This document shows, in pieces, positions 1,435 through 22,963 of a stretch of DNA of 32,649 bases. The notes under the pieces were generated by a model. That model was given only the letters and a program-made list of their open reading frames with translations. It searched no databases and was not told where the DNA came from. The stretch is from NCBI GenBank assembly GCA_009924165.1, contig RFSD01000003.1:1-32649 (forward strand), written 5' to 3'. This DNA comes from Chitinophagia bacterium (lineage in GTDB: Bacteria; Bacteroidota; Bacteroidia; Chitinophagales; Chitinophagaceae). Every line of letters begins with the position of its first letter. The stretch's first letter is position 1. Made by a program: the position numbers and the translations under genes.

Positions 1435-2213
1435 TTACATAGATTTACCTTCTACAAATCTTGCATCTAAAGTTAGTTCAGTCAAAGTCTTTCCGCCTTT
1501 AATATTTGCAAGCATTTGCACAAATGCTAATTTGCCTAATTCAAATCCACTTGTTTCTACATAACTAATTGTTGGATGGTATAAATTTGGAATAAATCCA
1601 TTACTAATACTTATAACTCCAATCTCTTTTGGAACTTTTATATTATGTGCTTGAATAGATTTCATTACACCAATTAAAATTTCGTCTGTCATAGCAAACA
1701 CCGTATCAAATTTTTGTGTTTTACTTAAATGTTTATCAAATGCAGTTTCTGCTTCTGCAGAGCTATGGGTATTAACATAAGTACAATGTGTTTTAGGAGC
1801 GTACTTTTCCATAAATTGTTGAAAAGCCTGTTTTCTTTTTTGACTAATGGATAATGCAGGGTCACCAAAAATTGCCAACACATGTTTAGCACCTCTTTCA
1901 ATAATTTGTTGTTACTTGATTGCAAGATCATCAATGCATACCCGTTTTTTCTACTCTCTTCCTCAATAGCAGCAATAAAACTATCATAAAACAAATTCGC
2001 AATGGCAGGGACGATAACGCCAAATATTTTGCTACTCTGTGTTCTTAATTGAATGGCATAAGCATTTGGCTCGTAGTCAAGGCTATTGGCCAGTGCATGT
2101 ACTTTCTCTTTCGTTGCTGTTGAAATATCTGGATGATCTTTCAAAGCTCTGGATACAGTAGAAATACTGAGCTGTAATTGTTGCGCCAACAATTTGAGGG
2201 TCGTGTTCATCAT
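1435..2213 (-). pseudogene. LacI-family transcriptional regulator, internally deleted and frameshifted
   Basis: Two minus-strand ORFs in different frames together make up one LacI/GalR-type regulator. The first gives an intact N-terminus: a helix-turn-helix with the hinge (STVSRALKDHPDIS, residues 17-31) and the start of the periplasmic-binding-like core (GVIVPAIANLFYDSF). It leaves frame after about residue 102, at MILQSSNN. The second frame resumes with IIERGAKHVLAIFGDP and continues to a normal C-terminus. Family members are about 340 aa, whereas the two parts sum to about 260. About 70-75 residues of the effector-binding core are therefore missing, and the junction is out of frame. The junction lies at the short repeat TTGTTGTT (1906-1913), which suggests slippage or a deletion between short repeats. 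The product would keep the DNA-binding domain plus about 60 aberrant residues. The gene lies divergent to the SusC gene and presumably controlled it. An assembly error is possible but would need to remove more than 200 bp. Confidence 0.85.
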
Positions 2214-2517
2214 AATATGAAAGCTTTACAAAGTTCAAATTAAGGAAAATTAACACAAAATTTATCGCAAACGTTTGCAAAATTCTATTATTTTTATTTA
2301 TTTATATCCTTTTATACATGTAAGGAATAGCATGCTAAAATGCGCATAAATCAATCTATCATTGAGTTACAGGCGATTTATAAAGGTCGGTTAAGGCTTA
2401 AAAACGAACATTTGTGAAAGGGCAAACCAAAAAGTTAAAAATTATTTAACAAAAAATGTGATTCATATTAAAAATGTGTATTTTGTAACCGCTTATTAAA
2501 CCAATAAACTGCCAATT
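2214..2517. promoter_or_regulatory. Divergent control region between the lacI remnant and the SusC gene
   Basis: This 304-bp gene-free stretch is very AT-rich. It contains the LacI-type operator (listed separately), two further short palindromes (TACATGTA at 2315-2322 and TAGCATGCTA at 2328-2337) and an inverted repeat GTTAAA-5nt-TTTAAC at 2434-2450. A possible SusC promoter box, TATTTTG at 2479-2485, lies 32 nt before the ATG but is one base short of the TAnnTTTG spacing, and no -33 TTG fits. I see no ORF or RNA gene here. The palindromes beyond the operator have no assigned partner. Confidence 0.55.
2267..2278. promoter_or_regulatory. LacI-family operator, perfect palindrome
   Basis: GCAAACGTTTGC is a perfect 12-bp palindrome with the central CG typical of LacI/GalR operators. 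It lies 53 bp upstream of the start of the lacI remnant and about 240 bp upstream of the SusC gene. That position suits autoregulation of the regulator and control of the divergent susCD transcription unit. A copy with one mismatch lies at 22450-22461, upstream of the sucrose operon. Confidence 0.75.
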
Positions 2518-5500
2518 ATGAATTTTTCAAAAATTGTTAAGTCCTCTATTTTAGGACTGTTTCTTGGCTTGCTTGCAATCAATGCACAAGCACAGAACAA
2601 AACAGTTACAGGTAAGGTGTTAGATGCTAAAGACGGTTCTCCAATCGCTTCAGCATCTGTTGTTGCTAAAGGAACTTCAACAGGCGCAAAAACAGCGGCT
2701 GATGGAACTTTTGCTATTACTGTACCTTCATCTGTAACAAAATTAGTTGTTTCAACTGTAGGTTATTCTTCTAGAGAAGTAGCTGCAGAAGGAAACGTAA
2801 CAGTATCATTAAACCAAACAAGCGAGCAATTGAATGAAGTTGTTGTTGTTGGTTATGGTACTCGTAAAATTAAAGATGCGACTGGTGCGGTTGTTTCTTT
2901 GGGTGAAAAATCCTTCAACAAAGGGATTATTTCTTCTCCAGAGCAATTGTTACAAGGTCGTGTTGCTGGTGTGAATGTTACAACAAATTCTGGTGAGCCA
3001 GGAGGAGCTGTGAACGTGACTATCAGAGGTACTTCTTCTGTAAGAAGTAACAACAACCCATTGTATGTGGTTGATGGTGTGCCTTTATATGGTGGCGGTA
3101 CAGTTGGAAGTTCTATCACAGTAGATGGTGGTACTACAGCAAGAAACCCATTATCATTCTTAAACCCTAACGATATTGAGAATATCTCTATCTTAAAGGA
3201 TGCGTCTTCTGCAGCTATTTATGGTGCTAGAGGTGCGAATGGTGTTGTATTAATTACTACTAAGTCTGGTAAAGGTAAGCCTAGCTTAACTTTCAATGCA
3301 ACTACATCAGTATCTACAACTGCTAATCGTTATGATTTAGCTAGTCCACAAGAATTCATGTATGGCATCAAAAAGACATTACAAGAATCAGGATTTGACT
3401 TCTCTGGTGTTGGTTCAAATGATAAAGGTTTTAACACAGACTGGCAAGACCAAGTATTCCAAACTGCTATTTCTAACAGTTACAACTTATCATGGGGCTT
3501 CTCAAATTCAAAGTCTTCTTTGAAATTGAATGGTTCATTCGATAACCAAGAAGGTATCGTTAAAACTCAAGGGTTGAAGCGTTATACTTTTGGTTTGAAA
3601 TATTCTAATCAATTAACTTCTCGTTTAAAATTAGATGTAACTGCTAATCAGTCTATCGTTAACAACAGCTATGCTCAAGTAACGAACAATGCTGGTTACC
3701 AAGGTTCATTGATTGGATCAATGATTGGTGCAAACCCAACATTCCCTGTTTATAATTCAAATGGTCTATGGTTTGATAACCAAGATGGTAACAGAAACCC
3801 TGTTGCAATTTTAGAAGGTTACAAAGACAATGACACTTACAATAAATTATTAGCGAATGTGTCTGTATCATACAAGATCTCAGACGATTTAACTTATAAG
3901 GCAATCTTCGGTATGGAGAATGGTGCTTCTGAGCGTTTAACTTTTGTTGACCCTCGTTTACCAGGTGCTTATATCCAAGGTACAATCAACATTCGTGGTA
4001 AGAACTATGTTGGGTCTGATTTTTCTGGTAAAGGAAGAGCAGCTCAACAATTCTTAGATCAAACTTCTAGCTTGATCGAGCACACGTTGAACTATGATAA
4101 GACTTTCAAGAACGGCAACAACTTACAAGCTTTGGCTGCCTTCTCTTATCAAAAAACAACTGACTATTACAGAGCTTCTCAAAGATGGGGTAATGCTGGT
4201 GCAACTCGTATGTTAACTAATTTCAAAGAGTACACTGGTGGTGTAACTGATGTATATGGTGACAGTACGCAAGTTGAATTACAGTCTTATTTCTCTCGTG
4301 TAAACTACACAATGAAAGACAAGTATATCTTATCTGCATTGGTGAGAATAGACGGATCTTCTAAATTTAGCTCTGGTAGCAAATACGGTACTTTCCCTGC
4401 ATTTGGTTTCAAATGGAGAATGTTAGAAGAAAAATTTGCTCAAAATACATTGGGTAAAATTTTCTCTAATTTTGACTTGAGATTAAACTATGGTATCACA
4501 GGTAACCAAGAGTTCCCTGCATATGCTTCTTTAGCTTTACAACAAAGAAACTTTACAGGTGGATCAAGTGTGATTACCAACTCTAATCCTAATTTACGTT
4601 GGGAGCAAACAACTACAACTGGTGTAGGTATTGACTTCTCAATGTTCAATGGTAGATTGAATGGTACAGTGGATTATTTCAACAAGACTACACAAGATTT
4701 ATTGACTTTGATCAGCTATCCTCAACCAGCAGCATCTGCTGATCGTTGGGTGAATTTAGATGGTGATGTAATCAATAAAGGTTGGGAATTTGGTTTAGAC
4801 TATCAACTAGTTCGTCCTGCTTACAGAGGTGCATTTGGATGGGATGTGAATTATAACATGTCTTTCTTAAACAACAACGTAACTGGATTCGGATCTACTG
4901 TGCTTAACACAGGTGAGGTTTCTGGACAAGGTTTATCTGGTGCTTACGCACAAACAATCCGTGATGGTTCTCCTTTATTCACTTTCGTAATGCCTACATT
5001 CTTAAGATTTGATGCTTTTGGAAATGGTGTTTACGCAAATGGTGCTAAGGATGAAATTCAAGGATCAGCTTTACCTACATTCAATGCAGGTTTAACAAAC
5101 AACTTTACATATAAGAAATTAACTGCTAGCATTTTCTTTAATGCAGTAACTGGATTCTATGTGTACAATAATACAGCGAACGCCTTATTATTAAAAGGTA
5201 GTTTGAAGAATGCAAAGAATGTAACAAGAGAAGTTGTGAATTCAATTGAGAATTCTATCAACCCAGGTAACGTTTCAACTCGTTTCTTAGAAAAAGGTGA
5301 TTATATCCGTTTAGCAAATGCTAGCTTAAGTTATGCATTAGATGTGAAGCAAGGCTCATTCATTAAAGGATTGAACTTGACTTTATCTGGTCAAAACTTA
5401 GCATTATTCACGAAGTACTCTGGTTTAGATCCAGAGGTGAACGTGGACAAATCTAGAAACGGTGTTCCATCTCGTGGATTTGACTATACAGCAACTCCAA

Positions 5501-5541
5501 GAGCAAGAGTAATCACTTTTGGTATCAATGCTCGTTTTTAA
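2518..5541 (+). CDS. SusC/RagA-family TonB-dependent outer-membrane receptor
   Basis: This is a TonB-dependent active importer of the outer membrane that forms a lidded pore with its SusD partner and typically takes up oligosaccharides. The 1007-aa protein begins with a signal peptide cleaved after about residue 25 (AINAQAQ). A carboxypeptidase-regulatory-like domain (about 28-105, starting TVTGKVLDAKDGSPIASASV) comes next, then a TonB box (EVVVVGYG), the plug domain (GRVAGVNVTTNSGEPGG, PLYVVDGVP, ISILKDASSAAIYGARGANG) and a long beta-barrel ending in aromatic FGINARF. No STN domain is visible, so it is not of the anti-sigma-signalling type, which fits control by the adjacent LacI regulator instead. 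The SusD gene follows after 21 bp. The substrate cannot be read from sequence. A link to sucrose or another glucoside is inferred only from the shared operator. Confidence 0.95.
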   Translation: MNFSKIVKSSILGLFLGLLAINAQAQNKTVTGKVLDAKDGSPIASASVVAKGTSTGAKTAADGTFAITVPSSVTKLVVSTVGYSSREVAAEGNVTVSLNQTSEQLNEVVVVGYGTRKIKDATGAVVSLGEKSFNKGIISSPEQLLQGRVAGVNVTTNSGEPGGAVNVTIRGTSSVRSNNNPLYVVDGVPLYGGGTVGSSITVDGGTTARNPLSFLNPNDIENISILKDASSAAIYGARGANGVVLITTKSGKGKPSLTFNATTSVSTTANRYDLASPQEFMYGIKKTLQESGFDFSGVGSNDKGFNTDWQDQVFQTAISNSYNLSWGFSNSKSSLKLNGSFDNQEGIVKTQGLKRYTFGLKYSNQLTSRLKLDVTANQSIVNNSYAQVTNNAGYQGSLIGSMIGANPTFPVYNSNGLWFDNQDGNRNPVAILEGYKDNDTYNKLLANVSVSYKISDDLTYKAIFGMENGASERLTFVDPRLPGAYIQGTINIRGKNYVGSDFSGKGRAAQQFLDQTSSLIEHTLNYDKTFKNGNNLQALAAFSYQKTTDYYRASQRWGNAGATRMLTNFKEYTGGVTDVYGDSTQVELQSYFSRVNYTMKDKYILSALVRIDGSSKFSSGSKYGTFPAFGFKWRMLEEKFAQNTLGKIFSNFDLRLNYGITGNQEFPAYASLALQQRNFTGGSSVITNSNPNLRWEQTTTTGVGIDFSMFNGRLNGTVDYFNKTTQDLLTLISYPQPAASADRWVNLDGDVINKGWEFGLDYQLVRPAYRGAFGWDVNYNMSFLNNNVTGFGSTVLNTGEVSGQGLSGAYAQTIRDGSPLFTFVMPTFLRFDAFGNGVYANGAKDEIQGSALPTFNAGLTNNFTYKKLTASIFFNAVTGFYVYNNTANALLLKGSLKNAKNVTREVVNSIENSINPGNVSTRFLEKGDYIRLANASLSYALDVKQGSFIKGLNLTLSGQNLALFTKYSGLDPEVNVDKSRNGVPSRGFDYTATPRARVITFGINARF

Positions 5542-5562: not shown

Positions 5563-7128
5563 ATGAAAAATAATTTCATCAAACAAACTACTACTTATAT
5601 AGCTGCAATTGCAGTTACATTAGGAGCAGTCTCTTGTTCAAAATTAGATGAACAAGTGTACGGTTCTAAATCAGTAGCATCAGCTTCGACTGGATCGTCT
5701 ACTGCTGACCTTAACTCAGTTTATGGTCAATTGAACCAATTGTCAGGCCAATATGGTTGGCATGCACTACAAGTACACTCTACTGATGAGTTACTTGGAC
5801 CAACCCGTGGTACTGACTGGGATGACTTTGGTACTTGGAGAAAAATCCATTTACATGCGACAGATGGTGCGCACAATCAAATTTTTGATACTTGGAATGG
5901 TTTAAATGGTGCTTTATTCCAAGCTACTTTAGTTGCAGAAAAATCTACAGGAGCTGCTCAACTAGAAGGTAAATTTTTAAGAGCCTTCTTTGCAACTCAA
6001 GTAATGGATATCTACGGACAAGTTCCTTACAGAGCTGCTGCAGATGGTCCAGATAAAATTCCTGCTGTTAAATCAAGATCAGAAGCTTTTGATTGGATTA
6101 TGAAAGATGTTGATGATGCGATTGCTGGTTTACCAAATTTTGGTACTGGAAGTGATATGCACAAGGCGAATAAACAAGCTGCTCAGTTCTTGAAAGCTCG
6201 TTTGTTATTGAATAAGGCTGTTTACAAAGCAGATCCTAAGACACCTACCACTTTCTCTTTTGTTCCTGCTGATATGGACCAAGTAATCACTTTAGTGAAT
6301 GCAATTGAAGCTTCTGGCAAATTTGCATTGTCTACTGGATACTGGGATAACTTTAAGTGGGATAACTACCAAAAATCAACTGAGTTGATTTTATCAAGAG
6401 CATCTAATGGTCCTGGTAAAGCAACACAAACAGGTGGTAACACTGGTGTGACTTGGGCAACTGGTATGGGAACACACTACAACCAAGCATTCTCTGGTTG
6501 GAATGGTTTCACTACAACTGCTGATTTCTACAATTCATTTGCTGACGGTGATCAACGTAAAACTGCAGAATTAGCAGATGCTACAGAAGTACATGGTCTA
6601 ACTGCTGGATTCATGGCTGGTCAACAATATAAATATGTTGGTGGTAAAAAAGTAGAAGTGACTGATCGTTCTGGTGGAAAATTAGTTTTCACTCCAGATG
6701 TAAGCTTATTCTTCTCTACAGAATCTAAAGGTATCAGAACTAATAAGTATCCTTTAAAAGGAGATCAATTAGGATTTAACGAAGAAAATGAGTTTGTGAT
6801 CTTCCGTTTTGCTGACGCTTTATTAATGAAAGCAGAAGCATTATTAAGAACTGGCAAAGCTGCTGATGCATTGGTGATTGTAAACAACATCAGAAAGCGT
6901 GCTGGAGCAACTAATCTATCTGCAGTTACATTGAATGATCTACTTGCTGAAAGAGGTCGTGAATTGTACTTAGAAGGTTCAAGAAGAACGGATATGATTC
7001 GTTTTGGAAAGTACAACGATCCTGTAAACGAAAGACCATTAAAGTCTGACGCTTTCAGAGTTGTTTATCCTATCCCTAACCAAGCTGTTTCTTCAAACCC
7101 TAATTTGAAGCAAAACTTCGGTTACTAG
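5563..7128 (+). CDS. SusD/RagB-family nutrient-binding outer-membrane lipoprotein
   Basis: This is the surface-exposed lid partner of the upstream SusC, holding the glycan ligand over the barrel. The N-terminus is a lipoprotein signal with lipobox GAVSC, lipidated at Cys25. The 521-aa length and alpha-helical TPR-like body match the family. The conserved C-terminal region has ADALLMKAEALLRTG, then VNNIRKRAGA, LLAERGRELYLEG and R-R-D-IRFGKY, ending in VYPIPNQ...NLKQNFGY, the usual SusD closing motif. It is co-transcribed with the SusC gene (21-bp gap) and followed by a strong terminator, so susCD looks like a bicistronic unit. Confidence 0.95.
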   Translation: MKNNFIKQTTTYIAAIAVTLGAVSCSKLDEQVYGSKSVASASTGSSTADLNSVYGQLNQLSGQYGWHALQVHSTDELLGPTRGTDWDDFGTWRKIHLHATDGAHNQIFDTWNGLNGALFQATLVAEKSTGAAQLEGKFLRAFFATQVMDIYGQVPYRAAADGPDKIPAVKSRSEAFDWIMKDVDDAIAGLPNFGTGSDMHKANKQAAQFLKARLLLNKAVYKADPKTPTTFSFVPADMDQVITLVNAIEASGKFALSTGYWDNFKWDNYQKSTELILSRASNGPGKATQTGGNTGVTWATGMGTHYNQAFSGWNGFTTTADFYNSFADGDQRKTAELADATEVHGLTAGFMAGQQYKYVGGKKVEVTDRSGGKLVFTPDVSLFFSTESKGIRTNKYPLKGDQLGFNEENEFVIFRFADALLMKAEALLRTGKAADALVIVNNIRKRAGATNLSAVTLNDLLAERGRELYLEGSRRTDMIRFGKYNDPVNERPLKSDAFRVVYPIPNQAVSSNPNLKQNFGY

Positions 7129-7158
7129 GATTTACCAAAAATAGTTAACCTATTATAG

Positions 7159-7187
7159 AAAAGGCCGTGGTTTACCACGGCCTTTTT
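7159..7187 (+). terminator. Intrinsic terminator after the SusD gene
   Basis: GGCCGTGG-TTTA-CCACGGCC forms a perfect 8-bp GC-rich stem with a 4-nt loop, extended by A:T pairs and followed by TTTTTG. It starts 31 bp after the SusD stop codon and should end most susCD transcription. Confidence 0.9.
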
Positions 7188-7230
7188 GTTTCCAGGAAGG
7201 TTTCATAAAAATTTAAACCTCCCAGGAAAC
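7188..7230. repeat. Imperfect inverted repeat between two terminators
   Basis: GTTTCCAGGAAGGTTT and AAACCTCCCAGGAAAC are 16-nt arms with 14 complementary positions around an 11-nt AT-rich loop. The element begins where the T-run of the first terminator ends and stops shortly before the second terminator stem. It could be a third RNA hairpin or a protein-binding site. No T-run follows it directly. Confidence 0.55.
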
Positions 7231-7245
7231 AACTATTATGATTTT

Positions 7246-7271
7246 AGGCTGCCGTTTACGGCAGCCTTTTT
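7246..7271 (+). terminator. Second intrinsic terminator upstream of the VCBS gene pair
   Basis: AGGCTGCCG-TTTA-CGGCAGCCT is a perfect 9-bp stem with the same TTTA loop as the terminator at 7159, followed by TTTTTG. With no gene between the two terminators, it acts either as a backup to the first or as the end of a short untranslated RNA. Confidence 0.85.
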
Positions 7272-7272
7272 G

Positions 7273-7280
7273 TATTTTTA
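7273..7280 (+). promoter_or_regulatory. Possible -7 box of the first VCBS gene
   Basis: TATTTTTA differs from the Bacteroidota box TAnnTTTG only at the last base. It lies 24 nt before the ATG at 7305, the same distance as the acpP box from its ATG, and directly after the second terminator. No -33 TTG is visible. If real, the VCBS pair has its own promoter and is not simply read through from susCD. Confidence 0.35.
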
Positions 7281-7304
7281 TGAATACTATAAGACCTTGA
7301 TTTT

Positions 7305-16972: not shown

Positions 16973-18067
16973 ATGAAAAATTCAATTATATTAATGGCAT
17001 TGTTTTGCCTTGGCTTTATTCATCAATCCAATGCACAAGGTTGTGTGGCTATTAGAACAGTGGGCGGATTGTGCACAATGGAACACGCAGGTATGCACCA
17101 AGAAGACAGTTCTAAATGGACTTTGAATATTAATTACAGGTACTTTACTTCTTATAAACACTTCAATGGAAGAGACGAGCAAAAATTCAGAGTGGAAGAA
17201 GGTTCGGAAGTCATTAATTATATGAGTGCAATGGATTTTAACTTATTAAGAAACATCAATAGTAAATGGATGGTAGGCATCAATATACCACTTGTGAACT
17301 ATGATCGTACCTCAAAATATGAACACTTAGGCAATACCAGTCCATATCGTTTTGCAACGGCAGCTAGAGGTTTAGGTGATATTCGTCTTGCAGCATATAG
17401 ATGGTTGATTGCACCCGATGCCAATAAAAAAGGCAATTTAATGGCAGGACTAGGTATCAAATTACCTACAGGTAATTTTAAAGCGCAGGATGAATTTCAA
17501 TATGCAACTAACGCTCGAAGAATTGGTTATGTAGACCAATCTATTCAACCAGGTGATGGCGGATTTGGTGTTACTGTTGAATTAAATGGATTTAGACAAA
17601 TTAATACAACATGGAGTGCTTATGCTAACGCATTTTATTTATTGAATCCTAGGGACAATAATGGTGTGAGTACAGCAAGAGGTGGAACGCCTTCTGCAAC
17701 TGCAATCAAGTATACTTCGAATGTGATGAGTGTGGCAGATCAATACATGGTTAGGTCTGGATTCAACTATAGCAAACAAGCTTGGGCTTATTCATTAGGC
17801 TTAAGATATGAGTGTATTCCAACTTATGATTTGATAGGAAAGAGCACAGGATTCAGAAGACCTGGTAATATATTATCTGCTGAACCTGGCGTAACCTATA
17901 TGTATAAAAAATATAATTTTTTCCTATACACTCCAGTGGCTATAAGACGTGAAAGACCACAGAGCTATCCAGATATTGTAAGAACTAATCTTACAGGAGT
18001 TTTTGCAAGAGGAGATGCTGCATTTGCTGACTACAGTATTAATGTAGGTATGAGTTTTAGATTCTAA
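16973..18067 (+). CDS. Outer-membrane beta-barrel protein (transporter-like), partner of the haloperoxidase gene
   Basis: The 364-aa protein has a signal peptide cleaved after about residue 21 (HQSNAQ), alternating hydrophobic/polar beta strands throughout and a terminal Phe (NVGMSFRF) typical of outer-membrane barrels. The overall pattern (WMVGINIPLVNYDR, MAGLGIKLPTGNF) resembles the MetA/transporter-type barrel families, but no substrate can be assigned. The mature N-terminus is unusual: two cysteines 11 residues apart, then several His and Met residues (CVAIRTVGGLCTMEHAGMH), which could be a disulfide or a metal site. The gene lies 40 bp after the haloperoxidase gene on the same strand and overlaps the amylosucrase 3' end by 4 bp in convergent orientation. 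Confidence 0.8.
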   Translation: MKNSIILMALFCLGFIHQSNAQGCVAIRTVGGLCTMEHAGMHQEDSSKWTLNINYRYFTSYKHFNGRDEQKFRVEEGSEVINYMSAMDFNLLRNINSKWMVGINIPLVNYDRTSKYEHLGNTSPYRFATAARGLGDIRLAAYRWLIAPDANKKGNLMAGLGIKLPTGNFKAQDEFQYATNARRIGYVDQSIQPGDGGFGVTVELNGFRQINTTWSAYANAFYLLNPRDNNGVSTARGGTPSATAIKYTSNVMSVADQYMVRSGFNYSKQAWAYSLGLRYECIPTYDLIGKSTGFRRPGNILSAEPGVTYMYKKYNFFLYTPVAIRRERPQSYPDIVRTNLTGVFARGDAAFADYSINVGMSFRF

Positions 18068-20013
18068 CTAATGACTTCTAAAATAGCGAACTGATAGCCA
18101 CCTAGTATAAAAAATTCATTGTCATTACCAACATTGTGTGTAAGGCCAGTCCAATGATCTTTTAATTGCGATGGCCTTATACCATGTTCTTTAAAAGTAT
18201 ACCAAGTTACAAAGGAGTCAGCAGGTTGATAATTAAAGAGACAGAATAACTTTTTATTTTCAAAGGAACGGATGAACCCAGCAACATGAATATTATGAGG
18301 AGTCATCCAAGTCACATTGCTAAAGTCGCTCAAAATAGGCAATGTTTTTCTGATTTGAATTAGCTGCTTCGTTTCATTAAAGATGCGATATTCTATACTT
18401 CCTTTAATTTTCCTCTGTTCATTTTTAGTCCAGTCAATGATTGGTCGATGCATCCACCTATTGTCATAATTTTTCCCTGGGTCATTTAAATAACTATAGT
18501 CATTGGTGTAAGCCATCTCATCGCCATAATACAACATGGGAATACCGCCCATGAACATCGAATGTGCTTGCATCAATATAATTTTTCTCAATGCGTTTTC
18601 TATTTCACCTGCATTATTCCATGCTATTGCTTTTTCTAATCCACATAATGATGCGAGGGATCCACTAATGCGGGCATCATTTGTTTTTGGATTGACAGAA
18701 AATAAGGCACCTGCTGCAACGGATCCATCATGACTACCAGCATAATAATTTTTTAAATAGGTTCTATGATGATAGGGGTCAAAACCAGTACTTGCAATGA
18801 TTTCGTCGTCATAACCCAATCCGATATCGTCATGGCATCTAGTGTAGGAGATCCAAGTACAACCGTATGGTTTTTGCAAGATAGGATGCTGGGCTTTTAG
18901 CATAATCCTTGTGTCTCCAGTCGCAAGCGCGTCCCATTGCAATGCCATTTGTGTGGCGTTGTATGCTACATCACACTCATTTGCAGTATATTTATCTGTA
19001 CCAAAATATTTGATGATTTCATTTGGGGCAACAATGGCTTCTCCTAACAATGCCATACCTGGGCTTGTTACTTGAGTGCATTGTTTGATCAATCTAAGTA
19101 AAGTATGTGCTTTAGGTAAATTTTGACAACCAGTACCAATTTCTTTCCAAATAAATGCTGGCGCATCAATACGTAAAATATCAACACCTAGATTCGCATA
19201 AAATAAAATCGTATCCATCATGGCAACCAATACATTTGGATTGCTAAAATTTAAGTCCCATTGATAATGATGGAAAACAGTCATCACCCATTTATTCAAT
19301 TCTGGAACATAAGTGAAACTTCCAGGGGAGGATTCGGGGAAAATTTCCGGCATGGTTTGATCTAATTGATCAGGTATGCCTCGATTGTCGAAGAAATAAA
19401 AGAAATCTTGATAATAAGGATCTCCAGCTTTCGCTTTCTTTGCCCATTCGTGATGGTGTGAGGTATGATTTAAAACAATATCTAACATTAAATACATATT
19501 GGATGTATTCATGTCTGCTATTAAGTTTTGCAAATCTTGCAAGGTCCCAAATCTAGTTGCTACTTTTCTAAAATCAGATACTGCATAACCTCCATCACTT
19601 TCACCTTCTGGACTTTCAAAAATAGGCATAAGGTGTAAAAAATTTACACCTAGTTCTTTAAAGTAAGCTAGCTTTTTTTGAAGTCCTTGAATGTTTTCAC
19701 TGAAACGATCCACATACAAACTCATCCCAGTGATCTCATTGCTTAAATACCAATGACCCAATTTGGACTTTTTGATATCTTTTTTTAGAAAGACATCAGC
19801 GCGTTCTTTGTATTGTTGAATTAATGTAACTAAAAGCGCTTCAAAAGCTTCATTTCTTTTTGGATGCCAAGCATAGACTTCATCAAATAAATTTTCGATT
19901 GTACTTATATGCTTCAAAAATTGTTGACTAAAAGCCTTATCCTTTTTTGTGGAATCAATTTTGTATTTAGATAGTAAGTCAGTACCGAATTGATGTAATG
20001 GGGTCAGGTTCAC
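18064..20013 (-). CDS. Amylosucrase (GH13 family, sucrose glucosyltransferase)
   Basis: Amylosucrase transfers the glucosyl unit of sucrose onto an alpha-1,4-glucan and releases fructose. The 649-aa protein has the family layout: a helical N-terminal domain (1-90), then the (beta/alpha)8 barrel. Visible motifs are DIVLNHTS (about 178-185), GVDILRIDAPAF with nucleophile D283, GEAI with acid/base E325, and RCHDD with D395. These positions are close to D286, E328 and D393 of the Neisseria polysaccharea enzyme. No signal peptide is present, so it acts in the cytoplasm. The start is GTG, 14 bp after the fructokinase stop, with no in-frame ATG upstream. It is the last gene of the transporter-fructokinase-amylosucrase operon. 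A sucrose hydrolase of the same subfamily is the main alternative, since hydrolysis and polymer formation cannot be told apart here. Confidence 0.9.
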   Translation of the reverse strand: MNLTPLHQFGTDLLSKYKIDSTKKDKAFSQQFLKHISTIENLFDEVYAWHPKRNEAFEALLVTLIQQYKERADVFLKKDIKKSKLGHWYLSNEITGMSLYVDRFSENIQGLQKKLAYFKELGVNFLHLMPIFESPEGESDGGYAVSDFRKVATRFGTLQDLQNLIADMNTSNMYLMLDIVLNHTSHHHEWAKKAKAGDPYYQDFFYFFDNRGIPDQLDQTMPEIFPESSPGSFTYVPELNKWVMTVFHHYQWDLNFSNPNVLVAMMDTILFYANLGVDILRIDAPAFIWKEIGTGCQNLPKAHTLLRLIKQCTQVTSPGMALLGEAIVAPNEIIKYFGTDKYTANECDVAYNATQMALQWDALATGDTRIMLKAQHPILQKPYGCTWISYTRCHDDIGLGYDDEIIASTGFDPYHHRTYLKNYYAGSHDGSVAAGALFSVNPKTNDARISGSLASLCGLEKAIAWNNAGEIENALRKIILMQAHSMFMGGIPMLYYGDEMAYTNDYSYLNDPGKNYDNRWMHRPIIDWTKNEQRKIKGSIEYRIFNETKQLIQIRKTLPILSDFSNVTWMTPHNIHVAGFIRSFENKKLFCLFNYQPADSFVTWYTFKEHGIRPSQLKDHWTGLTHNVGNDNEFFILGGYQFAILEVIS

Positions 20014-20027
20014 AGTGCACTTGCTAT

Positions 20028-20981
20028 TTAGGAATTGAAAATAGAATTATTTAAATGTTTAAAAGCTTCCATGGCGCCCATGTATTCACATGTTCTTGCC
20101 CCCGCTTTATTGGCATTCGTAATCATTATTTGCCATCTCTCAATAGCGATTGTTTGCATATCAGAAGGCTTAGTTCCAATGAGCTGGTACAAAACGGCAC
20201 CTACAAAAGCATCTCCTGCTCCAGTGGCATCAATTGCAGTAATTGGAATGCTTGAAATAATTTCTGTACCATGACTGGTCGACAAAAGTGTACCCTCTTT
20301 GCCCAAGGTGATGGCAAATACGGCATTTGTTTTTGCACGTAAAGCCGCTGCTGCAGCATCCACCGTGTCAAGTTCAGTAATTAACATCGCTTCCTCGTCA
20401 CTTAGTTTAAAAAAATCACAGGACTGAATAAAATGCCAGGACTGTGTAATAAAACTTGCAGTATTGTTGGGGAATAATAAATGTCTATAATTGGGATCAA
20501 AGCTAATCAAAGCACCAGCTGCTTTTGCTTTATTTAATAAATCAATATAGGTTGCTTGCAAGGGTCCAGGTAAAAAACCTGTTGCAGATCCAAAATGTAC
20601 AATACTATATTCGTTTAAATTGATTGTCGCTAAATCAGCCATTGACAATTGCCCATCGGCACCTCTATTAAAATAAAAATCTCTTTCACCATCTTCCATT
20701 AATGAAACAAATGCAAATGTGGTAAAGGAGTTTGGGTCTTGTATGATCCATTTTGTATTCACACCCATTTCATTTAATAAATCAATTAAGTGCTGACCAA
20801 AAGGGTCTTTGCCCACTTTTGCAGCCATGTCTACTTGACCTCCAAGTGCGGCAATAGCCGCAGCTACATTCGCAGGTGCGCCACCCGCTTTTTTTAAAAA
20901 ATTTTGCCCATCTGCAAGTCGACTTCCTCGGTCGGTACAAATCATATCAATCAAGGCCTCTCCAATACACAAAACTTTCAT
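20028..20981 (-). CDS. PfkB-family fructokinase
   Basis: It phosphorylates a sugar with ATP in the cytoplasm, most likely fructose released by the amylosucrase encoded 14 bp downstream. The 317-aa protein shows the ribokinase/PfkB signatures: an N-terminal GEALIDMI, the substrate-binding KAGGAPANVAAAIAALGG (about 31-48), and the ATP and anion-hole motif DATGAGDAF near residue 250 with the catalytic aspartate. The GGAPANVA form is common in bacterial fructokinases. Substrate assignment comes from operon context between a sucrose-type transporter (22-bp gap) and amylosucrase. Other hexose or 2-keto-sugar kinases in this family cannot be excluded from motifs alone. Confidence 0.9.
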   Translation of the reverse strand: MKVLCIGEALIDMICTDRGSRLADGQNFLKKAGGAPANVAAAIAALGGQVDMAAKVGKDPFGQHLIDLLNEMGVNTKWIIQDPNSFTTFAFVSLMEDGERDFYFNRGADGQLSMADLATINLNEYSIVHFGSATGFLPGPLQATYIDLLNKAKAAGALISFDPNYRHLLFPNNTASFITQSWHFIQSCDFFKLSDEEAMLITELDTVDAAAAALRAKTNAVFAITLGKEGTLLSTSHGTEIISSIPITAIDATGAGDAFVGAVLYQLIGTKPSDMQTIAIERWQIMITNANKAGARTCEYMGAMEAFKHLNNSIFNS

Positions 20982-21003: not shown

Positions 21004-22347
21004 TCAATTTTCATGTCCACCATTCATGGTCATTCCACCATCACTGTTTTTATTTTTATGTGCACTTTTTACCAACAAAGTAGCTACTGCAGCAAGCAAT
21101 AATAACACGCCTGCAAAACTAATGGCTTTACCTGGGTCATTGCCTAGGAAGTTTTTCAAAATATATCCAAATGTCATTGTCTGTAATAGCATAGGTATCA
21201 CAATCATCATATTGATGATGCCCATATATACACCGTACCTTTCTTTTGGAATTTTGTGCACTACTAATAAATAAGGGATACCCATCATACTTGCCCATGC
21301 GATACCAAATCCGGCCATAGGAACAAATAATAAATTTTTATCTGTGATATGTGGGAATACAAGTAGGCCAATAGCTGCCATGATTAAACATATCACATGA
21401 ATCATTTTTGGGCTAATTTTTTTTGCCAACCAAAGTAAAATGAAGGCAGATAAAAACGTTACAATATTATACCAGCCATTCACTAATCCTGACCAAGCTA
21501 CAGCATCTTCATAAGCAGGATTGTTTTGATACACAGTTGTATTCCAAACAGATTTAGCAATACTTTTTGATGCATTCTGCCAATAACAAAAAAGTGCATA
21601 CCATTGAAATAAATAGACCAATGCCAATTGCCACATCACTTTTGGCATATCACCAATGGCCGATGCAATTTCTTTGAACGGTGTAAACACATTTATTTTT
21701 TCCGCTTTCAAAGCGGCAAGTTCTGCTTCAGTTGGAGGAATCTCAGGTGTTTTAAAAACAGACCAACCTACTGTAGCAATGGAACAAACGCTGCCTAAAA
21801 AGAAAGAGGCATATACCCAATAAGGTAAGCTACCAAAACTGCCTGGAATATGTTCCCTAAAAAAGTATAAAGAAATATTAGCTAAGGTAATTCCTAAGCC
21901 AGTAAAAAAACTTTGGGTTAAAAAACCAGAAGCATGTTGTTCGCTAGGTAATTTGTCGGCAATAAATGCACGATAAGGTTCCATCGCTGTATTGTTTGCA
22001 GCATCTAATACCCATAACAATCCGACTGCCATCCACAACGCACTACTAAATGGGTAAAGAAATAAACAAATACTACAGAGTAAAGCGCCAATTAGAAAGT
22101 ATGGCTTACGTCTTCCAAATCTTGGTGACCATGTTTTATCACTCATAGCGCCAATGATGGGTTGAATGAGTAATCCTGTCATGGGGCCAGCTAAATTAAG
22201 CAATGGTATTTGGTCTGGACTCGCACCCAACATATCATAAATTGGATTTACAGCTGACTGTTGTAATCCAAAACTATATTGAATTCCAAAAAAGCCAACA
22301 TTCATGTTGATGATCTGCGAAAAGGATAACCTTGGTTTAAATGACAT
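21004..22347 (-). CDS. SUT/SLC45-like (GPH-type) sugar:proton symporter, probably sucrose
   Basis: This is an inner-membrane permease of 447 aa with about 12 hydrophobic segments. Features of the sucrose/maltose transporter group (plant SUT, animal SLC45) are visible: the N-terminal GLQQSAVNPIYDMLGA, the loop-2/3 motif SPRFGRRKPYFLIGA, and the membrane-embedded LDAANNTAMEPYRAFIAD. It is the first gene of the operon with fructokinase and amylosucrase, so sucrose is the natural substrate. The cytoplasmic tail is short and ends in a Gly/Met/His-rich stretch. Control is probably through the LacI-type operator about 100 bp upstream. The SusCD system could supply the outer-membrane step, but this is inference. 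Confidence 0.88.
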   Translation of the reverse strand: MSFKPRLSFSQIINMNVGFFGIQYSFGLQQSAVNPIYDMLGASPDQIPLLNLAGPMTGLLIQPIIGAMSDKTWSPRFGRRKPYFLIGALLCSICLFLYPFSSALWMAVGLLWVLDAANNTAMEPYRAFIADKLPSEQHASGFLTQSFFTGLGITLANISLYFFREHIPGSFGSLPYWVYASFFLGSVCSIATVGWSVFKTPEIPPTEAELAALKAEKINVFTPFKEIASAIGDMPKVMWQLALVYLFQWYALFCYWQNASKSIAKSVWNTTVYQNNPAYEDAVAWSGLVNGWYNIVTFLSAFILLWLAKKISPKMIHVICLIMAAIGLLVFPHITDKNLLFVPMAGFGIAWASMMGIPYLLVVHKIPKERYGVYMGIINMMIVIPMLLQTMTFGYILKNFLGNDPGKAISFAGVLLLLAAVATLLVKSAHKNKNSDGGMTMNGGHEN

Positions 22348-22449: not shown

Positions 22450-22461
22450 GCAAACCTTTGC
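22450..22461. promoter_or_regulatory. LacI-type operator copy upstream of the sucrose operon
   Basis: GCAAACCTTTGC matches the perfect operator GCAAACGTTTGC at 2267 in 11 of 12 positions, the difference being one central base. It lies about 100 bp upstream of the transporter gene and 6 bp upstream of the -7 box of the divergent YcxB-like gene. It could therefore regulate either gene. By base-count reasoning a one-mismatch copy in this small intergenic gap is unlikely by chance. Confidence 0.55.
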
Positions 22462-22498: not shown

Positions 22499-22963
22499 AT
22501 GTCTATCCAAATACAGTATCAAAAATCTCATGTTATACAAGGCCTAAGGTATCATTTTATCAAGCAACCTGAAATCAAGGGTTTAATGCTATTTGTAAAT
22601 GTCTATGCCATTATTACAGCAGGTCTATTGTTTTATAAAAAAATCAGACCCGAACTTTTTTTAATTGGGTCTTTATTATGGATTGTACTTATGGTATTTT
22701 TTTGGTTTTTATTACCCTGGCTTTTTTTTAGAAAGACCACCATGTTTAAGCAAGACTGGTTATTTGATTTTGATAGCACTGGCGCCAGTTTGAATTCAGA
22801 AAGCGGAACGGCAACTTGGGATTGGTCAGAAGTGACCAGATTTTTTGAAAGTCCCTTGTTTTTTCATGTCTATTTTGCGCCAAAATCCTTTTTTATCCTT
22901 CCGAAGGCGCATTTTAGCTTCGAAGAACAGCAATTAATTAGGGGGTTTTTTAGGAAAAAGTAG
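22499..22963 (+). CDS. YcxB-like small membrane protein
   Basis: The 154-aa product has a polar N-terminus (YQKSHVIQGLRYHF), two adjacent hydrophobic segments (LMLFVNVYAIITAGLLFY and FLIGSLLWIVLMVFFWFLL) and a C-terminal soluble part in which TWDWSEVTRFFESPLFFHVYF and FFILPKAHF match the pattern of the YcxB-like domain family. The function of that family is unknown. The ORF track extends to 22304, but those 65 codons overlap the upstream control region, and the promoter box at 22468 lies within them, so ATG 22499 is preferred. The gene is divergent from the sucrose operon, and a LacI-type operator lies between them. Confidence 0.75.
   Translation: MSIQIQYQKSHVIQGLRYHFIKQPEIKGLMLFVNVYAIITAGLLFYKKIRPELFLIGSLLWIVLMVFFWFLLPWLFFRKTTMFKQDWLFDFDSTGASLNSESGTATWDWSEVTRFFESPLFFHVYFAPKSFFILPKAHFSFEEQQLIRGFFRKK

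Follow-up and report, generated by a model that had tools for sequence, protein, structure and literature searches.

A predicted LacI-type regulon joining a SusCD receptor locus and a putative sucrose operon in freshwater Sediminibacterium

The regulator and receptor locus

The window, i.e., the whole stretch of 32,649 bp analysed here, is contig 113 of a 1.78-Mb, 234-contig assembly, and it comes from a freshwater Sediminibacterium. Sediminibacterium MAGs (family Chitinophagaceae) are among the named relatives of its lacI locus, and synteny with congeners extends over about 20 kb. The first of the two loci considered in this work combines a regulator gene with a divergently transcribed receptor gene pair:

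1435..2213, minus strand: lacI, LacI-family regulator, start codon at 2213, DNA-binding domain intact
2267..2278, no strand: predicted LacI operator 1, GCAAACGTTTGC, a perfect 12-bp palindrome in the divergent lacI-susC gap
2518..5541, plus strand: susC, TonB-dependent receptor of the SusC/RagA type (TIGR04056, 659.5 bits, over the cut-off)
5563..7128, plus strand: susD-like lipoprotein gene (PF07980)
7246..7267, plus strand: terminator-like strong hairpin with a T-run, located past susD and ahead of the first FG-GAP/ASPIC gene

The N-terminal part of the lacI product matches the LacI helix-turn-helix domain PF00356 (41.4 bits against a cut-off of 27). Operator 1 covers positions -65..-54 relative to the lacI start codon and lies at -251 relative to that of susC. 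It is thus far nearer to lacI, with 53 bp up to the start codon, whereas 239 bp separate it from susC.

The earlier note on this DNA had considered the FG-GAP/ASPIC (VCBS) gene pair downstream of susD as a possible member of the same regulon. Scanning of the upstream regions of these genes revealed no operator, and the terminator-like hairpin parts the pair from susD, so inclusion of the pair via an operator of its own is not upheld. A second hairpin was read by eye at 7162-7183 in the same susD-FG-GAP gap (7129-7304), and comparable hairpins are present in this gap in congeners. The hairpins suggest either attenuation or a separate transcript.

The putative sucrose operon

The second locus, 20 kb away, includes an operon headed by an MFS transporter gene, which is followed by the genes of a PfkB-family kinase and a GH13 enzyme:

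18064..20013, minus strand: amylosucrase-like GH13 enzyme (amylosucrases lead its PDB matches, with E values down to 1e-138)
20028..20981, minus strand: PfkB-family kinase, fructokinase-like (closest to fructokinases)
21004..22347, minus strand: MFS transporter resembling sucrose transporters (the sucrose transport protein SUC1 is its best match in the PDB, E 2e-17)
22450..22461, no strand: predicted LacI operator 2, GCAAACCTTTGC, reading GCAAAGGTTTGC on the MFS strand, at -114..-103 relative to the MFS start codon
22468..22475, plus strand: TATCTTTG, which fits the -7 promoter word of Bacteroidota (TAnnTTTG) and is located 6 bp past operator 2 on the YcxB side
22499..22963, plus strand: gene for a YcxB-like membrane protein, divergent from the MFS gene and starting 37 bp past operator 2

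The GH13 protein aligns to PDB entry 7esh across residues 45-598, i.e., over nearly its full length, and its motifs RIDAPAFIWK, GEAIVAP and RCHDDIG match their counterparts in this alignment. We take these to be the catalytic motifs of the amylosucrase family. The MFS protein scores below the cut-off of TIGR01301, the NCBIfam model of GPH sucrose symporters. Judged by sequence, this is an operon for sucrose use. TAnnTTTG is the -7 promoter consensus of Bacteroidota (PMC7366714); sigma-70 promoter predictions were set aside because they are unsuited to the promoters of this phylum.

Frequency of the operator word

The words reported in the earlier note are confirmed at both places, and operators 1 and 2 are the only matches to the operator word with zero or one mismatch in the window. 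In the whole genome, the word occurs once in perfect form and three times with one mismatch; the one-mismatch copies other than operator 2, two in number, sit within coding sequence, so operators 1 and 2 are the sole intergenic ones at this stringency. Copy number revealed no enrichment: there are 4 copies with at most one mismatch versus 3 for the backward control, and 59 versus 75 with at most two, so near copies occur at background level. A degenerate palindrome search returned hits too numerous to be of use. It is positional conservation in congeners, and not word frequency, that argues for operator function. If the LacI-type word were simply a common one and the likeness of the two sites accidental, the background counts in this genome could be accounted for, but chance would not be expected to keep the word at fixed positions in both orthologous loci of congeners, or to remove it jointly with LacI, and we consider this explanation extremely improbable.

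Conservation across Sediminibacterium

Operator 1 is found about 65 bp in front of nearly every close lacI orthologue, in differing flanking sequence; in one genome (G081) the site at lacI is weaker, with three mismatches, and is located at -86. Operator 2 is identical in 17 genomes (the window and 16 congeners), and the spacer on its MFS side is poorly conserved. More distant congeners carry other operator forms in front of the MFS gene. Overall, a site with at most two mismatches precedes the MFS orthologue in 27 of 38 genomes and none of the 123 control upstream regions, which were those of the PfkB, GH13, susD and FG-GAP genes of the same loci.

The canonical operator of the LacI family is an even palindrome, mostly with a central CG, and a minority of operators have another centre (PMC4052901). 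Operator 1 has the canonical form, and the centre of operator 2 is CC/GG. The idea that a CC centre excludes LacI binding at operator 2 was considered and rejected, as the lacI sites of relatives have the same centre. Two genomes (G013 and G069) carry the GG-centred GCAAAGGTTTGC at lacI and the CG-centred GCAAACGATTGC at the MFS gene, which is the reverse of the arrangement in the close clade, and GG-centred sites are located in front of lacI in six loci outside this clade (L165, L171, L181, L186, L195, and L220). Since the two forms are swapped in these genomes and lacI itself can have a GG-centred site, the exchange of the centre is tolerated.

Five genomes that bear LacI have a different site, GCAATCGTTCCC..., in front of the MFS gene, which counts against a single LacI governing both loci; three of the five have a distinct LacI (30% identity) encoded near the MFS gene. 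A composite site, GCAATCGTTCCCGGTAACGTT, lies between the MFS gene and a divergent susC in three loci (L108, L121, and L260), with another LacI (30% identity) encoded nearby. The regulator has apparently been replaced in these loci.

One regulator for both loci

The recognition-helix region, S(I/V)STVSRAL, is the same in nearly all of the susCD-linked and sucrose-linked LacI proteins, so the operator word alone cannot separate paralogues and genomes with a single LacI become especially relevant. In eight genomes (G000, G001, G005, G007, G009, G014, G020, and G068), the search for PF00356 genes found the orthologue of the window's lacI and nothing else. Both sites are kept in each of these genomes, so a second LacI-type protein that could bind operator 2 was not found in them. 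Conversely, six genomes, each at least 92% complete (G011, G017, G035, G036, G067, and G084), have the MFS gene with neither a LacI orthologue nor the MFS site, and in four of them no LacI-family gene was found at all. When only genomes of at least 80% completeness are counted, none of the 6 without a LacI orthologue has the MFS site, versus 20 of the 25 with it, the other five being those that carry the GCAATCGTTCCC... site (Fisher p = 6e-4, a value which overstates independence because the genomes are related; the safer statement is that LacI and the site were lost jointly in two separate events on the MFS tree). The MFS site thus depends on the presence of LacI. Two genomes with the site in which LacI was not found (G031 and G082) speak against this dependence; they are 75 and 64% complete, respectively.

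On the LacI tree, susCD-linked and sucrose-linked proteins fall into largely separate groups. In other Chitinophagaceae, relatives of the window's LacI are encoded beside GH13-PfkB-MFS genes, where either GCAAACGTTTGC or the word ACAAACGTTTGC occupies -85..-88 of the MFS gene, and a CCAAACGATTGC-type site is located in front of a susC that does not adjoin lacI. Taken together, the operator kept at both places, the sole LacI, the joint loss and the linkage of LacI to the sucrose operon elsewhere give good support to the proposal of the earlier note that the lacI/susCD locus and the predicted cytoplasmic sucrose operon belong to one LacI-type regulon.

Operator 2 could also be viewed as a promoter element that serves the divergent YcxB-like gene, since its spacing to the TATCTTTG-type word is fixed in the close clade. 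However, three genomes (G017, G036, and G084) keep the YcxB-like gene divergent from MFS yet have neither the site nor LacI, and in G027 the site precedes MFS although the YcxB-like gene is located about 10 kb away, an observation directly opposed to such a role. Nor would a promoter element explain the palindromic form of the site, which is a perfect GCAAAGCTTTGC in G005 and CG-centred in distant congeners. We regard this interpretation as very unlikely.

Control and substrate of SusCD

We consider it likely that the two words serve as operators for the same local LacI-family regulator, the one encoded at 1435-2213, whose control would cover both loci. In this regulon, a LacI dimer would bind NCAAA-SS-TTTGC. 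At operator 1 it would cover the region just upstream of lacI in the divergent gap, resulting in autoregulation, and at operator 2 it would control the MFS/fructokinase/amylosucrase operon. LacI is most likely a repressor, which would be released by a sugar appearing upon entry of sucrose or a related alpha-glucoside into the cell. Outer-membrane import and cytoplasmic use would then be induced jointly, in the manner of the Xanthomonas SuxR system.

How far this control extends to susCD is less certain. The 95 bp next to susC include a strongly conserved block that contains an inverted repeat. The repeat, GTTAAAAATTATTTAAC, located at 2434-2450, is kept with small variations in 9 of 9 aligned sequences and is possibly a site for another regulator or a promoter element. 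Direct control over susC from operator 1 is likely, but the operator is far from this block, so the control may be indirect. LacI might even govern only itself and the sucrose operon, with susCD being a divergent neighbour under its own proximal element GTTAAAAATTATTTAAC; the position of operator 1, much closer to lacI, and the conserved block next to susC are both in line with such an arrangement. Yet L175 and several group-B loci have a site at susC without an adjacent lacI, and in three genomes (G027, G034, and G062) the site holds its distance to susC (248-254 bp) and not to lacI. Exclusion of susCD from the regulon seems rather unlikely to us.

The earlier note went on to predict the SusCD substrate, sucrose or a sucrose-containing glucan, from regulation. 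This prediction is plausible but unproven. Two genomes (G078, 96% complete, and G065, 82% complete) keep lacI, the operator and susCD without an MFS orthologue or amylosucrase, which also weighs against a regulon with one LacI for both loci. In some congeners, SusC encoded beside lacI shares only about 40% identity with that of the window, with LacI about 80% identical (L132, L136, and L139 versus L126 and L141); SusCD has apparently been swapped in place there.

Further differences between congeners were noted around this locus. A GH65 kojibiose hydrolase gene (NF053734, about 1150 bits) follows the FG-GAP pair in L133 (12141-14186), L135 (9582-11630), and L142 (7458-9503), and a search of the window genome for such a gene found none. 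Many congeners have a HAD-family beta-phosphoglucomutase-like gene after lacI (e.g., L126, 2272-2940, and L136, 8791-9435), which is missing in the window.

The regulator gene in this assembly

Compared with intact orthologues (about 330 aa), the window's lacI has a 214-bp internal deletion (window 1881-1930), about which the earlier note was silent. The deletion removes a part of the periplasmic-binding-protein-like effector domain, which is intact in the orthologues, and shifts the frame after codon 102. With the frame broken, the regulon would be constitutive in this strain, unless the deletion arose through faulty assembly. The dN/dS value of the C-terminal part versus the nearest orthologue is about 0.09, the same as in intact pairs; therefore, the deletion is either very recent or, again, an assembly fault.

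The frame shift is an objection from the window itself to a LacI regulon operating there. It is possible, though we hold it somewhat less probable than the opposite, that lacI is a pseudogene, both operators are relics and both loci are constitutive in the window genome; this is compatible with the LacI regulon as the explanation for the relatives. Besides the frame-shifting deletion, the lack of any copy of the missing segment elsewhere in the assembly and of any other LacI-family gene in the window genome, as far as our searches of both could find, point in this direction. On the other side, the low C-terminal dN/dS would make any loss very recent, and an assembly of 234 contigs leaves room for a fault. 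A broader scenario can be offered as speculation, which we think improbable as a whole: one LacI couples the SusCD importer to the distant amylosucrase/fructokinase operon for the use of plant or cyanobacterial alpha-glucosides (sucrose and 1,2-linked ones, e.g., kojibiose), and the regulator has just been lost here, leaving two orphan operators and constitutive scavenging. Kojibiose is named as the 1,2-linked candidate because congeners carry the GH65 kojibiose hydrolase.

Comparison with known systems

A literature search found no relevant report on sucrose in connection with TonB-dependent uptake in Sediminibacterium. The present results provide a comparative-genomics argument, independent of SusC homology, that ties a SusCD importer to a putative cytoplasmic sucrose pathway in Chitinophagaceae, and Sediminibacterium genomes with a single LacI make the assignment of the regulator unusually clean. 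A comparative survey named the LacI-family sucrose regulons ScrR, CscR and SuxR in Proteobacteria, Firmicutes and Actinobacteria (PMC4052901); the predicted regulon would extend this type to a phylum not named for it there. It resembles these regulons in having a local autoregulated LacI and an even palindromic operator in front of the transporter and catabolic genes, and differs in the GG/CC centre of the operator before MFS, in place of the usual CG.

A kojibiose hydrolase has been described for the branched-dextran utilisation system of Flavobacterium johnsoniae (PMC10316084). The likeness lies in the GH65 kojibiose hydrolase at the SusCD locus of several congeners, and the window genome, in which this gene was not found, differs.

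The closest counterpart by functions is the sux locus of Xanthomonas campestris, which includes the LacI-type repressor SuxR, the TonB-dependent receptor SuxA, the amylosucrase SuxB, and the transporter SuxC (PMC1790865). The same set (TonB-dependent receptor, MFS transporter, amylosucrase, and LacI regulator) is complete here, with a common predicted operator in front of the receptor locus and the transporter operon, so that an outer-membrane receptor, an inner-membrane transporter, an amylosucrase and an autoregulated repressor would be under one LacI-family regulator, as they are in Xanthomonas. This likeness concerns functions, and induction by sucrose is putative here. Unlike in Xanthomonas, the role of the receptor falls to a SusCD pair, there is a fructokinase in addition, the phylum is Bacteroidota, and the genes are distributed between two loci 20 kb apart, with lacI residing at the receptor locus.
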